NCBI RefSeq assembly: GCF_003149375.1
Contig: NZ_QFWH01000008.1
Span: 1-64,000 of the forward strand
Reading direction: 5' to 3'
DNA length: 64,000 nt
Source: Vampirovibrio chlorellavorus
Lineage (GTDB): Bacteria > Cyanobacteriota > Vampirovibrionia > Vampirovibrionales > Vampirovibrionaceae
In this document: piece by piece, positions 19-5,967 of the stretch
How positions within the stretch are numbered: position 1 is the stretch's first letter
Layout: the number at the start of each line of letters is the position of its first letter
Made by a program: the position numbers and the translations under genes
The notes under the pieces: model-generated
What the model was told of the DNA's origin: nothing
The model's input: the letters and a program-made list of their open reading frames with translations, nothing else
Database searches by the model: none

Positions 19-1029
19 ATGGCCAGAGCCCGGAATATCAAACCCCAGTTCTTTAAAAATGAATTTCTCGCTCAACTCAGCCCGCATGCTCGCCTTCTGT
101 TTGTGGGCCTTTGGTGCATGGCCGATGTAAAAGGTCGCATGGAATATCGACCAGCTCGCATCCGTGCGGAATTATTCCCCTACGAATCTGTGGATATGGA
201 AGCCCTTTTGGATGAGTTGGCCTCCTCCCCCGAGCGGTTCATCATTCGTTACGAAATCGACGGATCCCATTACCTGGAGATTCCCAATTTTTCAAAACAC
301 CAGAATCCCCATAAAAAAGAGAAAGACAGTGGAAGCTCAATTCCCGCCCCTAGAGCGGATTTTCAGAAAAGACCCGGAAATTCCGGGACAAGACCGGGAA
401 ATTCCGGGTCTGGTACTGTACCGGACCCGATCCAGCACCGTACTAGCCCAGCTGATTCCCTCTTACTGATTCCTGATTCCCTCACACTGAAACCTGAGGG
501 TTCCGAACCTGACGGTTCGGGTGTGAGTGTGATCGGTTTGGAAAATGAAATAGACCCCAACCAAGCATTGGCTCAAGAGGGCATGCATTACCTGGCATCC
601 CTAAACAGTCCCAATCATCAAAATATCGGGTGGATTCAGGGATTCTTGAAAATCCAGCTTCAAGAGCTGGCGCAAACCAAACCTGATATTCCGAAACCGG
701 AAATCCTTCGGTTATGGCGAGACACTTGCGATCTTGCGGTGTCGAGAAACGCAACAGCCCCTCAGTGGCTCAAAACGACGTTTAAAAATAAATTAGATGC
801 CTGGGTGGTCGAAGCTCCAAAAACGCATGCTCTCGATGATCTCAGCAGCCAATCAGCGGCCTTGTTAAAGTTCCCTTTCATCAAACATAAGTACACCCCC
901 GAATGGTTCCGTTCAGAGGAACTGGAAATTCGCCCGGAATCCCCCAGCGGCTTGAGCCATAAAAAGACCTTTGATTATTATCCGCTTGCCCATCTGGAAG
1001 GTTGCCTGGAGGAACCCTCGAATGCATGA
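19..1029 (+). CDS. Phage-type replication initiator (lambda O / DnaD-like)
   Basis: 336 aa. The N-terminal ~90 residues look like the winged-helix domain of phage replisome organisers (aromatic-rich LLFVGLWCMAD segment, then a helix-rich stretch and HQNPHKKEK). The middle is low-complexity with repeated RPGNSG units, and the C-terminal half is a helical domain. A GGAG at 5-8 sits 10 nt before the ATG. It overlaps the DnaB-like helicase gene by 8 nt, the usual pairing of an origin-binding protein with the helicase it loads. The low-complexity middle coincides with DNA repeats (365-530) that look like an origin. The family call rests on domain pattern and neighbour; the exact family is uncertain. 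Confidence 0.7.
   Translation: MARARNIKPQFFKNEFLAQLSPHARLLFVGLWCMADVKGRMEYRPARIRAELFPYESVDMEALLDELASSPERFIIRYEIDGSHYLEIPNFSKHQNPHKKEKDSGSSIPAPRADFQKRPGNSGTRPGNSGSGTVPDPIQHRTSPADSLLLIPDSLTLKPEGSEPDGSGVSVIGLENEIDPNQALAQEGMHYLASLNSPNHQNIGWIQGFLKIQLQELAQTKPDIPKPEILRLWRDTCDLAVSRNATAPQWLKTTFKNKLDAWVVEAPKTHALDDLSSQSAALLKFPFIKHKYTPEWFRSEELEIRPESPSGLSHKKTFDYYPLAHLEGCLEEPSNA
365..530. repeat. Iteron-like repeats and large stem-loop inside the replication gene (candidate origin)
   Basis: Two 20-nt near-copies at 370-389 and 391-410 (18/20 identical, period 21) share the core GGAAATTCCGGG. They are followed by an 11-bp palindrome GGTACTGTACC at 411-421-region, three TGATTCC copies (453-459, 467-473, 474-480), and a stem-loop pairing 481-487 with 521-527 and 503-509 with 514-520. 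Iterons inside the initiator gene match the arrangement of the lambda O gene. Origin function is inferred. Confidence 0.5.
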
Positions 1030-2455: not shown

Positions 2456-3607
2456 TTGCCAAACTCATTTGTGTTCATAGTAGATATCGAAACATATAAG
2501 ACTCACATCAAATATGGGTTTTGCGCCACCGGCAAATCAAAAAAACCAATTGAAAACTATAAAACCTTCATGGATGAAAAAATTCAATCGGAATATCACG
2601 ATATTCTTGCAGACCTCTTAAACGTCGAAATTGGCGATCAAATATTTTTCTATATAACAAAAGAGGGTTTTAAGGATGTCTACGAAGTGACTGAAAAGCT
2701 CTTTTTTGACGCCACTGAAGTGGAAAATCTTCCGGCCAGTAGACCTTTTCGAATTCTGATCCGTCCAAAGTACCAATTTGAAAAAGCTGTACCTGAAGAT
2801 AGTTTATTCCTCAGTGAAAAAAGACGCTCCAAGTTTTGGCTACTTTATTTCAATAAAGCTCGTGGTAAAGCCAGGGGATGCACCCCTCTTGATCCTGATG
2901 CAAGCCAAGAGCTATTGGAGTTGCTCATAAAGTACAATGCTTGCGAGTACAGTAGCGCTACCCAAGTTCCTGAACGCTATCCAGGCATCAAGAGAGAAAT
3001 TAAGGAACTTAAGATTAAAACAAGGTTTGAGCAACCATTTTCTAGGGAAGATTCCTTGTTGGCAATGATATTGCGAGCTTATCAGACTAAAAGTGCCACA
3101 TTTTCCAGCATTTTCGGAGGCTTTGACCGCTTGGAGTGGATGGGAAGTAAAATTCCTTATGACATTACAGGAAAAAATATCGATCTTTTGCTATATCACC
3201 GAGCAAAGACACCGGACGAACAGTTTAGTCCACGTTATAAATATTCAGTTGTTGAGCTTAAAAGAGAAACTGCCGACCTTGCCGCACTTTATCAAGTACT
3301 GAATTATAGTCAAGCAGTGGGAAACAACTTGGCGGAAGGAGATTTCCATTTAGTTCAGCCAGTTCTTATTGCCCATGATTTCACTGATGATGTTCTTAAA
3401 GCGGTGGAGCTTGGCTTCTCAAACCATAAAAAACCAATTCTTGTTTCATATCGATATGTCCAAGATGAAGGACTAACACTAGAAATTATTAATAAACATG
3501 ATAATGACAGCCCAAGCCCAACAAAACCCATTAAGCGCAATAAGCGGGCTTCTCAATCCGAAACGCCTTATATTGAACCTCTGGTTGCAAAAGGAAAAAT
3601 CGGCTAA
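2456..3607 (+). CDS. EVE/PUA-like domain fused to PD-(D/E)XK nuclease (candidate type IV restriction-like protein)
   Basis: 383 aa, TTG start at 2456 preceded by AAAGGAA; an alternative start is not excluded. Residues ~1-115 contain a PUA/EVE-like pattern (GDQIFFYITKEG, then VYEVTEKLFFDATEV and a strand FRILIRPKYQFEKAVPE). The C-terminal half has a PD-(D/E)XK nuclease signature: IDLLLYH with D243, VVELKRE with E267 and K269, then Q280xxxY284. EVE domains bind modified bases and are often fused to nucleases in modification-dependent restriction. The gene is visibly more AT-rich than its neighbours and lies between replication genes and integrase, a usual cargo position. The EVE assignment is by eye and less sure than the nuclease. 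Confidence 0.55.
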   Translation: MPNSFVFIVDIETYKTHIKYGFCATGKSKKPIENYKTFMDEKIQSEYHDILADLLNVEIGDQIFFYITKEGFKDVYEVTEKLFFDATEVENLPASRPFRILIRPKYQFEKAVPEDSLFLSEKRRSKFWLLYFNKARGKARGCTPLDPDASQELLELLIKYNACEYSSATQVPERYPGIKREIKELKIKTRFEQPFSREDSLLAMILRAYQTKSATFSSIFGGFDRLEWMGSKIPYDITGKNIDLLLYHRAKTPDEQFSPRYKYSVVELKRETADLAALYQVLNYSQAVGNNLAEGDFHLVQPVLIAHDFTDDVLKAVELGFSNHKKPILVSYRYVQDEGLTLEIINKHDNDSPSPTKPIKRNKRASQSETPYIEPLVAKGKIG

Positions 3608-4893
3608 TCCCACCCCTTCATCGCCTCAATGACCTCCTGCTCTTTAGTCTGGCAATAGCTCATAGTCGTCTTGATGTCAGAATGCCCGCAAGCCCTCTGA
3701 AGCATTTGCAGCGGCCTGCCCTTGTTGGCATTGATGGTCACGAACGCCCGGCGAAGGGCGTGAGGGGAAACGGTGACACCTGCTAGCAATCCCAGTCTTT
3801 GTAATCTCTGGTACAGCCCGCTTCTGTCCATTGGCTTACCCTTGCGGTTCAAGAAGAGGGGCTGATGTTCCCCGCTTGGCACTTTGGCCTTATATTCTTT
3901 CAGGACTTCCAACAAGCGGGAGGAGATGCCCACCCTCCGGGTTTTATTTCCTTTTCCCAGCCTGACAATCAGCCAGCCGCCTTCCAAGTCAATATCACCC
4001 CAACGAAGGGAGCAGGATTCAGAAGCTCTCAAGCCAGTGTTTAACAATAAAAGCACTATGAGTCGCTCTTGTGTGGTTTCACAAACCTTCAAGAGGGCTG
4101 GAATGTCAGCATTATTGACAGCCGTTCGCTTGGGGGGAAGGTGCCTCTGTGGCTTCTGATGTTTCACTTCTTCTATAAAGCTGGGGGCTAGGGCATTTTC
4201 TCGAATCAGGAATTTAGCAAAAGAAATCAAAGCCTCATAAAGCCTTGCCTTCTTTGCGTACTGCTTGGGAGGAATCGCCATTAAGGCCATTTGCAGCGTT
4301 TTAGGAGAAACTTCACCGTACTTTTCAAGGAACTCATCTACTATGCGTTTGTAATTTTTTGAGGTGTTTGGGCTAAAGGGCTTACCAGTCATCAAGCCTG
4401 TTTCCATGGCCTTCACCCAGGCAAAGATAAAGAGGGCATGAGGCTTTCTATCCTGCCGAAGCGCTTCCTTTTCCTGCACCTTTCGAAGTTCTTTGTCTGC
4501 TTTCAGTTGATAAGAAAGCATTTCCAGAATTTTGGAGCTGATAAGCCAAGTGGTCTTCTTCCCGTAGGGTTTCGGGGTGGCTGGCAGCTTGCCCGTTTCA
4601 CACCATCGGGCGATTGTCATTGGATTCTTACCAAGTTTTGAGGCCGCTTCCTTGACTGACAGAAAAAGTCCCACATTTTGCACTTTTGCATGTTGGACTT
4701 TTGTGGAAGTTGGGGGCGTTTTGCCTATCGTTTTATGAGATGCCTCATATTTTCCATTACCAGCCTCACAAACAAAAACAGCCCCAGAATCAAGTTCTGA
4801 AGCCGGTTTCAAGTTTTTAAAAGTGGCGCGCTCGGAGAGATTCGAACTCCCGACCTCATGGTTCGTAAACATGAATCTTCTTGATTTTCTCAA
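3604..4893 (-). CDS. int: Tyrosine integrase with fused excisionase-like HTH
   Basis: Up to 429 aa. Residues ~74-125 form a MerR/excisionase-type HTH (LSVKEAASKLGKNPMTIARWCETGKLP). Residues ~150-250 are a core-binding domain and 255-429 the catalytic domain, with R289 (TGLRASE), K314 region, H378xxR381, H404 and nucleophile Y413. The most upstream residues (about 1-27) translate the tRNA-Arg 3' half, so the real start is probably downstream: TTG near 4812 or GTG at 4683 or 4674; none has a good RBS. The gene is convergent with the nuclease gene, overlapping it by 4 nt. It catalyses site-specific integration into the tRNA-Arg gene at the adjacent att repeat. Confidence 0.85.
   Translation of the reverse strand: MRKSRRFMFTNHEVGSSNLSERATFKNLKPASELDSGAVFVCEAGNGKYEASHKTIGKTPPTSTKVQHAKVQNVGLFLSVKEAASKLGKNPMTIARWCETGKLPATPKPYGKKTTWLISSKILEMLSYQLKADKELRKVQEKEALRQDRKPHALFIFAWVKAMETGLMTGKPFSPNTSKNYKRIVDEFLEKYGEVSPKTLQMALMAIPPKQYAKKARLYEALISFAKFLIRENALAPSFIEEVKHQKPQRHLPPKRTAVNNADIPALLKVCETTQERLIVLLLLNTGLRASESCSLRWGDIDLEGGWLIVRLGKGNKTRRVGISSRLLEVLKEYKAKVPSGEHQPLFLNRKGKPMDRSGLYQRLQRLGLLAGVTVSPHALRRAFVTINANKGRPLQMLQRACGHSDIKTTMSYCQTKEQEVIEAMKGWD
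4816..4867 (-). repeat. att repeat: displaced copy of tRNA-Arg(ACG) 3' half
   Basis: 52 bp identical to 5883-5934. It runs from the anticodon loop through the T arm, acceptor stem and CCA into 8 nt of downstream flank. Identity stops inside the anticodon loop, a typical crossover point for tyrosine integrases. The copy sits at the 5' end of the integrase gene, as expected for an att site. Confidence 0.85.
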
Positions 4894-4978: not shown

Positions 4979-5011
4979 GGTTTTACAGCGGTTTTACAAC
5001 GGTTTTACAAC
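4979..5011. repeat. Three tandem 11-bp repeats near the att site
   Basis: Three consecutive copies of GGTTTTACARC at 4979-4989, 4990-5000 and 5001-5011, the last two identical. They overlap the 3' end of the toxin gene and lie ~110 bp from the att repeat. Short direct repeats near att often are arm-type integrase or excisionase sites; this role is inferred. Confidence 0.6.
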
Positions 5012-5371
5012 GGAGCTCAGCCACCAGAGCAACTTGTCAAAACGGAATTGCCCTGTTTCAAACCAGTTCATAAAATCCTGATAAGTCTTGGTATTATCAC
5101 AATCAATATATTGACCGTTCATCCGCAAGAAGGTATCAGTCATAAAGAGAGCCACTCGCTTATTACCGTCAATGAAAGGGTGGTTGTTGGCCAAACTTTC
5201 CATTAAAGCGGCAGCCTCTTCAATTAATCCCTCATAGTAACCAAGCTGGGGTCTGAACAAAGCGGCTTCCAAGGCACCCATGTCCCGAACGCCCGGATGT
5301 CCACCAAACTCGGCAATCAGAAGCCGATGAATCGCAAGCGCCTCTTGCAGTGTTGGGAAGTTATGACTCAT
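4994..5371 (-). CDS. doc: Doc/Fic-family toxin of a type II toxin-antitoxin pair
   Basis: 125 aa. The Fic-fold motif HPFIDGNKR at residues 64-72 has the Doc-type ending NKR, with H64, D68, K71 and R72 in place. The N-terminal LQEALAIHRLLIAEFGGHPGVRDMGALEAAL and the length match death-on-curing proteins. Doc of phage P1 inactivates EF-Tu by phosphorylation; whether this protein does so is inference. Its ATG overlaps the antitoxin stop by 4 nt (ATGA). The C-terminal codons run through the 11-bp tandem repeats. The pair lies between the two tRNA-Arg att repeats. Confidence 0.88.
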   Translation of the reverse strand: MSHNFPTLQEALAIHRLLIAEFGGHPGVRDMGALEAALFRPQLGYYEGLIEEAAALMESLANNHPFIDGNKRVALFMTDTFLRMNGQYIDCDNTKTYQDFMNWFETGQFRFDKLLWWLSSVVKPL

Positions 5372-5595
5372 TGGGCAAGTAGCCGACCCAGTTCACTGTT
5401 TTTCCTCAAGCTGCTCTGAAAATGAGCCATCACCTGATTGCGGGGCTTATCCGATTTCTTGGTTTCTAGATAAAGCCGCATGGCATCTTCCATTACAGCT
5501 TGAAATTGTCGACCTTCCTGTTCAGCCAAAGCCTTTAGCTCAGCCAATAAAACAGGATCTGCCTGGGTGGAAAATTTTTGTCTTTGTGTAGCCAT
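5368..5595 (-). CDS. Ribbon-helix-helix-like antitoxin partner of Doc
   Basis: 75 aa. The N-terminal part (QKFSTQADPVLLAELKALAEQEGRQFQAVMEDAMRLYLE) fits a ribbon-helix-helix DNA-binding fold, and the basic C-terminal tail (NQVMAHFQSSLRKNSELGRLLAQ) could be the toxin-neutralising segment. It is not obviously Phd-like. It is upstream of and overlaps the toxin gene by 4 nt. The likely promoter (5602-5630) ends 6 nt before the ATG, so the mRNA may be leaderless; the pair probably autoregulates there. Confidence 0.75.
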   Translation of the reverse strand: MATQRQKFSTQADPVLLAELKALAEQEGRQFQAVMEDAMRLYLETKKSDKPRNQVMAHFQSSLRKNSELGRLLAQ

Positions 5596-5882: not shown

Positions 5883-5934
5883 TTTAAAAGTGGCGCGCTC
5901 GGAGAGATTCGAACTCCCGACCTCATGGTTCGTA
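5883..5934 (-). repeat. att repeat within and beside the intact tRNA-Arg gene
   Basis: The second copy of the 52-bp repeat of 4816-4867. It forms the 3' half of the functional tRNA plus 8 nt beyond CCA. The distance between copies is 1067 bp, which defines a potential excisable unit holding only the Doc toxin-antitoxin pair. Confidence 0.85.
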
Positions 5935-5967
5935 GCCATGCACTCTATCCAACTGAGCTACGAGCGC
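5891..5967 (-). tRNA. tRNA-Arg (ACG), CCA encoded
   Basis: 77 nt including encoded CCA. The acceptor stem GCGCTCG pairs with CGAGCGC and the discriminator is G. The D stem is GCTC/GAGT, the anticodon stem CATGG/CCATG with loop CTACGAA (anticodon ACG), and the T arm GGGAG-TTCGAAT-CTCTC. It is an integration target: its 3' half is duplicated at 4816-4867. Confidence 0.95.

Follow-up and report, generated by a model that had tools for sequence, protein, structure and literature searches.

A region at about 366-530 of the window (the whole stretch of 64,000 nucleotides analysed) most probably represents a phage replication origin that doubles as coding sequence for the disordered linker of the phage's initiator, a reading to which we give a probability of about 0.85 from sequence comparison. 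Its DNA was organised as two modules whose order was constant: semi-palindromic iterons that differ between phages came first, and an array of TGATTCC heptads after them. A candidate origin within the initiator gene had been proposed in a preliminary description of this DNA, and the proposal was supported by conservation at the DNA level and by arrays lying outside the gene in some phages. One stretch of DNA would then act as an origin and also encode protein, and its repeat pattern shows the frame conflict caused by TGA. Intragenic origins are already known; a shared heptad array with frame avoidance, sometimes extragenic, was new to the literature searched, in which, with most subscription papers outside its range, no description of a conserved TGATTCC heptad array, including LIPDSLNLIPDS, was found. 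To our knowledge, most temperate phages have no mapped origin, and a sequence signature inside or outside the initiator gene could call origins in many phage genomes.

The locus and the initiator protein

The window, which starts at base 1 of its contig, seems to open within the terminal part of a prophage, with the initiator gene close to that base. The gene was an open frame of 336 aa (19-1029, + strand), the product of which matched PHROG 16167, "replication initiation protein", over residues 1-158 (phrog_16167, E 2.4e-46); matches to phage replication-initiation families covered the first 100-150 residues. It had no match in Pfam (0 families at E up to 1) or NCBIfam, and the sequence search of the PDB gave no significant relative. 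The next gene (1022-2350, +), the start of which overlapped the initiator stop, encoded a DnaB-type replicative helicase (PF03796, E 2.2e-64; PF00772, E 8.3e-19), as the preliminary description had stated. Between the helicase and a tyrosine integrase (3604-4893, -) lay a gene for a protein of unknown type (2456-3607, +) with NucS-like (E 0.0036) and EVE-like (E 0.067) matches, both weaker than the cutoffs. A Doc-type toxin gene (4994-5371, -; TIGR01550, above cutoff) stood beside the integrase, and the small gene upstream of it (5368-5595, -), without a family match, may encode an antitoxin. A tRNA-Arg was located at 5891-5967.

AlphaFold2 and fold comparison placed an N-terminal winged-helix domain at residues ~1-110 (19-348, +), predicted with a pLDDT of 92-98 at residues 11-90 and with the order helix-helix-helix-wing; the structure alignment held 69 sequences from 132 dereplicated genes plus chosen loci. 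Residues 125-178 were predicted to be disordered (pLDDT <50), and the repeats described below fell on that stretch, which agrees with their earlier assignment to the low-complexity middle of the initiator. The C-part of the protein was moderately confident. The best structural rows for the N-domain were RepA_N initiator domains with Z of 6.6-7.8, and a Z below 8 may reflect a common arrangement. They included 4pql (Z 7.8, rmsd 2.9, 85 aligned), 4pt7 (Z 7.2) and 5kbj (Z 7.1), all under the trust level of 8 of the tool, which we take to be RepA_N structures, while Foldseek gave no match with E <0.001 for the initiator. A C-terminal domain (552-1029, +), a putative helicase contact, was supported by conservation against the relative L010 and by a DnaD-like alignment, in which residues 186-265 were matched to the DnaD-like domain 2zc2 with Z 6.6 and 3.1 Å over 69 residues, below the trust level. 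The layout of N-domain, repeat-bearing linker, C-domain and then DnaB was confirmed.

Repeats in the linker DNA

The first module of the linker DNA consisted of CCGGAAATTCCGG semi-palindromes (366-408, +) and the second was the TGATTCC array (453-501, +). Direct-repeat search in 365-530 gave as the best 20-mer repeat the pair already noted in the preliminary description, 18/20 identical with a period of 21, at 366-385 and 387-406. Such a repeat was reached in 0/300 dinucleotide shuffles and in 1/300 synonymous-codon resamplings, and its formation by chance is very unlikely. The semi-palindromes of this module were CCCGGAAATTCCGGG at 373-387 and CCGGGAAATTCCGGG at 394-408, the former being a 7+1+7 palindrome absent from the earlier list; palindrome arms of at least 7 were reached in 20/300 shuffles and 23/300 resamplings. 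The 11-bp palindrome reported earlier, GGTACTGTACC, was found by direct inspection at 412-422 (+), and at its place the relatives had other palindromic or repeated motifs. Perfect palindromes as a general rule upstream of the heptads were rejected since many relatives lacked arms of at least 6, and the iterons are thus better called repeats, often semi-palindromic. By eye, TACTAGCCCAGC (441-452, +) ran straight into the first heptad, and the similar TAGCC(C/G)GGC was seen in the relative L003 and before the noncoding array L048.

The 24 nt at 369-392 were identical in the relative L006 in another reading frame, so that the same DNA encoded RPGNSG here and DPEIPG in L006; by our own arithmetic, a 24-nt chance match between two linkers is expected at ~1e-10 per pair. 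This is the conserved DNA with variable peptide that the preliminary description had proposed to look for among homologues, and it agrees with its suggestion that RPGNSG was a by-product. Motifs similar to the iterons were also present in L005 and L209. In viral contigs, the iteron-type pattern of the window had a single match, L238, where the protein was a different one. At 2126-2290 of L238, CCGGAA(A/T)TTCCGG-type repeats stood, by eye, apparently in the frame of a protein unrelated to the initiator family, and they could possibly form an independent intragenic origin.

Seven units made up the heptad array in exact 7-bp register, namely TGATTCC, CTCTTAC, TGATTCC, TGATTCC, CTCACAC, TGAAACC and TGAGGGT. 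The three exact TGATTCC copies at 453, 467 and 474, which had been noticed before, were thus part of a longer array. Taken alone they were only modestly unusual, with any 7-mer present three times in 8/300 shuffles and 11/300 resamplings; their significance in the window comes from the comparison with relatives.

Folded as single-stranded DNA, 365-530 gave -37.3 kcal/mol against -21.0 ± 2.7 (z -5.9, 0/200 shuffles), which bore out the long interrupted stem-loop of the preliminary description. Its 3' part, a branched stem-loop at 481-527 (+), partly overlapped the 3' end of the array. The stem-loop was not conserved in L010 since GGTGTGAG was kept there and the partner arm was missing. An AT-rich unwinding region beside the repeats was rejected because AT was not raised (0.43-0.50 in 361-540, versus 0.43-0.60 along the initiator gene).

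Selection on DNA or on peptide

Relatives were collected by the N-domain protein only, with N-domain matches <85 residues left out and dereplication by shared 15-mers, and the best 80 of at least 553 loci gave 66 genes. The linkers of these 66 genes contained 141 TGATTCC, with at least one copy in 52/66, while the N-domains contained 0, the C-part 1 and the reverse strand of the linkers 1. The codon-usage null was 12.1 ± 2.9 (maximum 22 in 300), which places the observed number ~12-fold above it, and synonymous permutation within the linkers gave 30.7 ± 4.3 (maximum 44). Among the 14/66 genes of this best-80 set without TGATTCC, 6 had at least two TGANTCY variants and the other 8 had fewer than two.

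The codon phase of the 141 copies, in the same 66 non-redundant genes from the best 80 of at least 553 N-domain matches, was 0 at position 1, 73 at position 2 and 68 at position 3. A 7-bp repeat passes through all three codon phases, one of which reads TGA, and TGATTCC never stood at codon position 1 because that phase would read the stop. Being limited to positions 2 and 3, TGATTCC therefore occurs as tandem doublets, with a substitute (CTCTTAC or CTTAACC, for example) as each third unit. Consistent with the register, 100/168 close TGATTCC pairs were spaced by a multiple of 7 bp, and the unit after a position-2 copy was another TGATTCC in 37/73; the 68 position-1 units were CTTAACC (13), CTTAAAC (7), GGATTCC (6) and others. 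In the window, CTCTTAC and CTCACAC were the units in the stop-forming phase.

Selection of the linker peptide (ADSLLLIPDSL and similar), for example as a contact with a helicase loader, with the DNA repeats merely following it, is highly improbable as the explanation of these data. The heptad block was in the same reading frame in every best match to the window, and therefore the frame alone leaves peptide constraint possible for the heptad part; LIPDS also recurs in many relatives (alignment consensus). Its codons tell against such selection, as they were almost always TGATTCCTGATTCC-like, GC-rich genes included. LIPDS occurred 54 times in the 66 genes (best 80 of at least 553), with ATT in 52, CCT in 52, GAT in 54 and TCC in 37 against background frequencies of 0.29, 0.21, 0.45 and 0.13, respectively, and the trend was the same in genes with GC3 >0.65 (28 occurrences). 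Synonymous sites of TGATTCC were frozen, whereas their free divergence would have spoken against the preliminary description. Also against peptide selection are the excess of TGATTCC over the codon-usage null, the iteron DNA common to different frames, and the noncoding arrays of 11 phages whose own initiator had 0 (10/11) or 1 (1/11, L033) TGATTCC copies. Judged from these comparisons, selection is on the linker DNA and not on the peptide, and, within the origin reading, the RPGNSG and LIPDS peptides are very probably by-products of it.

Arrays inside and outside initiator genes

The DNA pattern of three TGATTCC, two of them tandem, was found at no fewer than 120 viral loci, while the reversed control pattern gave 2. 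Among the 120 loci listed, the array lay in an initiator with the N-domain profile in 100, the initiator stood elsewhere in 11 and none was present in the stretch in 9. By eye, three of these 9 (L041, L071, L072) were initiators cut by the contig edge, four (L068, L108, L118, L130) were of the noncoding type and two (L112, L122) were unrelated, so that 103 arrays among the 120 listed were inside initiators, 15 in noncoding DNA and 2 unrelated.

In the 11 phages with a noncoding array and an initiator elsewhere in the stretch, the initiator started 2.3-3.3 kb from the array, which was on the same strand as the initiator in 4 and on the opposite strand in 7. The noncoding arrays reached 9 uninterrupted TGATTCC copies, and the ORFs overlapping them were short only (41-79 residues); a coding role there is still conceivable. 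Directly 5' of the noncoding heptads were repeats or palindromes of the kinds found inside other initiators, and the iteron-then-heptad order was kept in 11/11 noncoding contexts inspected, opposite-strand ones included.

Where ORFs were read (L009/L048 and L033), a repressor-like gene had its 3' end next to the noncoding array, and the semi-palindromes resemble operators. These features would suit an operator or autoregulation site in place of an origin. Such a site is improbable, since the element tracks initiators (103/120 listed loci inside genes) and stands mid-gene, not at a promoter, and its layout matches the lambda and pSK41 origins as these are described in the accessible parts of the sources cited below.

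Heptameric repeats dispersed in cyanobacterial chromosomes are a known class, and a neutral simple-repeat expansion akin to them could be imagined here. The TGATTCC pattern was present in 7/386 genomes of the phylum of the window, and in 6/7 of these (L219-L224) it stood away from initiators of the same family in the stretch examined. Neutral expansion is barely credible, as the same heptamer occurs in initiators of Pseudomonas, Escherichia, Hafnia, Acinetobacter and Bordetella phages and strand bias, phase and position are conserved.

Relatives, cassette exchange and host range

The nearest full-length relative, L010 of the same genus, had 72% protein identity to the initiator of the window. 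At the DNA level, 502-2350 (C-domain and helicase) was 91.3% identical and 19-498 was 37-70% identical; L010 thus had a different N-domain and origin, joined at ~502 to the conserved C-domain and helicase. The N-domain and origin have thus been exchanged as a unit, while the C-domain and helicase stayed the same. L010 had no TGATTCC and, by eye, TTAACCC-like repeats instead. In L011 (55%), the 439-498 block, with most of the heptads, had 78% DNA identity and the flanking blocks 48% and 65%. The iteron type could be labelled in 74/151 genes, and mutual-information statistics that ignore kinship gave N-domain columns 99, 63, 24, 23, 22, 50 and 55 among the leaders; by eye, KMELFPC-type helices accompanied AACGTT/CGTTAA iterons. 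A link between iteron type and N-domain residues, with kinship ignored, is suggestive only.

At least two TGATTCC copies were present in 5/8 initiators of named phages, namely Hafnia yong1 (4), JBD44 (2), Escherichia Louie (5), Acinetobacter SR (3) and Bordetella IFTN3 (2). TGATTCC was not found in the initiators of the other three, F10, Mx8 and VvAW1; F10 had TGATTCT-type copies by eye. TGATTCC was also present at L013 and L014, loci from Eubacterium and Stenotrophomonas genomes, and DNA matching the linker of phage Louie was found in 19/5,426 E. coli genomes.

Several other arrangements were observed. The Myxococcus phage Mx8 initiator (L232, from 4971) had, by eye, an insertion after the N-domain other than heptads, presumably of GIY-YIG type. 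An HNH-endonuclease-like domain stood between the N-domain and the TGATTCC array in L026 and L120 (by eye), and the linker of L178 had GGTAATAGGG-type repeats where TGATTCC would stand. E. coli strains were seen with this prophage region both as a chromosomal copy (L242 for 0H26) and in circular "plasmid" records, L240 (NZ_CP081694.1, 29,741 bp) and L241 (NZ_CP081786.1, 39,448 bp). The 29.7-kb circle L240 kept the initiator region and had no annotated portal, capsid or large terminase genes. The circular, phage-derived L240 and L241 were considered as candidate natural minireplicons; the 6.2-kb record L239 was linear and may be an assembly fragment.

Proposed mechanism

In the proposed origin, the winged-helix N-domain would bind the iterons as dimers or oligomers, and the adjacent heptad array would be opened or presented as a single strand. 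As in the loop-back model, that initiator may itself bind the heptads, and its C-domain would deliver the DnaB helicase, the product of the following gene. We infer the single-strand role of the heptads by analogy. A more tentative idea, which we consider rather doubtful, is that the heptads could be a portable opening element common to a large class of phage origins, in which the iterons would set specificity through the N-domain and the constancy of the heptads across bacterial phyla would reflect their melting and their retention as a GGAATCA single strand, either by the helicase-loading machinery or by a conserved initiator part. If true, the heptad array would be the phage counterpart of the DnaA-trio or of the RctB repeats.

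Comparison with known systems

The preliminary description had compared the layout with lambda ori, in which, according to the accessible part of PMC7466680, iterons lie midway along the initiator gene O, beside a gene of helicase function. The comparison held for the iterons mid-gene and for the helicase gene next to it. It failed for the AT-rich tract, since the window has none beside the iterons and the heptad array occupies that place. Also unlike lambda, the array of some relatives stands 2.3-3.3 kb away from the initiator gene, and the initiator of the window had no match to the lambda O family in the Pfam profile search (0 families, E up to 1).

Among the N-domain tblastn matches listed were many mycobacteriophages, some with proteins annotated RepA-like. 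In the accessible part of PMC7157519, mycobacteriophage repA was sufficient, the ori was presumed to lie within or beside it and no repeated motifs were found; the RepA-like proteins with a homologous N-domain by tblastn may differ from the RepA proteins of that study.

At the unwinding element of V. cholerae ori2, RctB recognises 5'-(G/A)ATCA-3' repeats (PMC10797057, accessible part). The bottom strand of TGATTCC, GGAATCA, contains AATCA, and in both systems iterons stand beside short repeats, whereas the initiator of the window is unrelated to RctB; the likeness of the heptads to RctB repeats may be taken as a lead only.

In RepA_N plasmids, as described in the accessible part of PMC5703833, Rep boxes at the centre of the rep gene are the binding site of the N-terminal winged-helix domain, the middle of the protein is a dispensable linker, and between pPR9 and pSK41 the NTD and origin were swapped while the CTD was kept. 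The window differs in that its initiator had no Pfam profile match, RepA_N (PF06970) included, in that a phage DnaB follows the C-domain, and in the heptad array, which is without mention in that part of PMC5703833. It resembles RepA_N/pSK41 in the semi-palindromic repeats within the initiator gene and in the exchange of NTD and origin seen with L010. The top fold rows of the N-domain, at Z values below the trust level, are NTD structures of RepA_N initiators (PMC7145576, accessible part). By fold rank, the closest architectural match appears to be with RepA_N plasmid initiators, ahead of lambda O.
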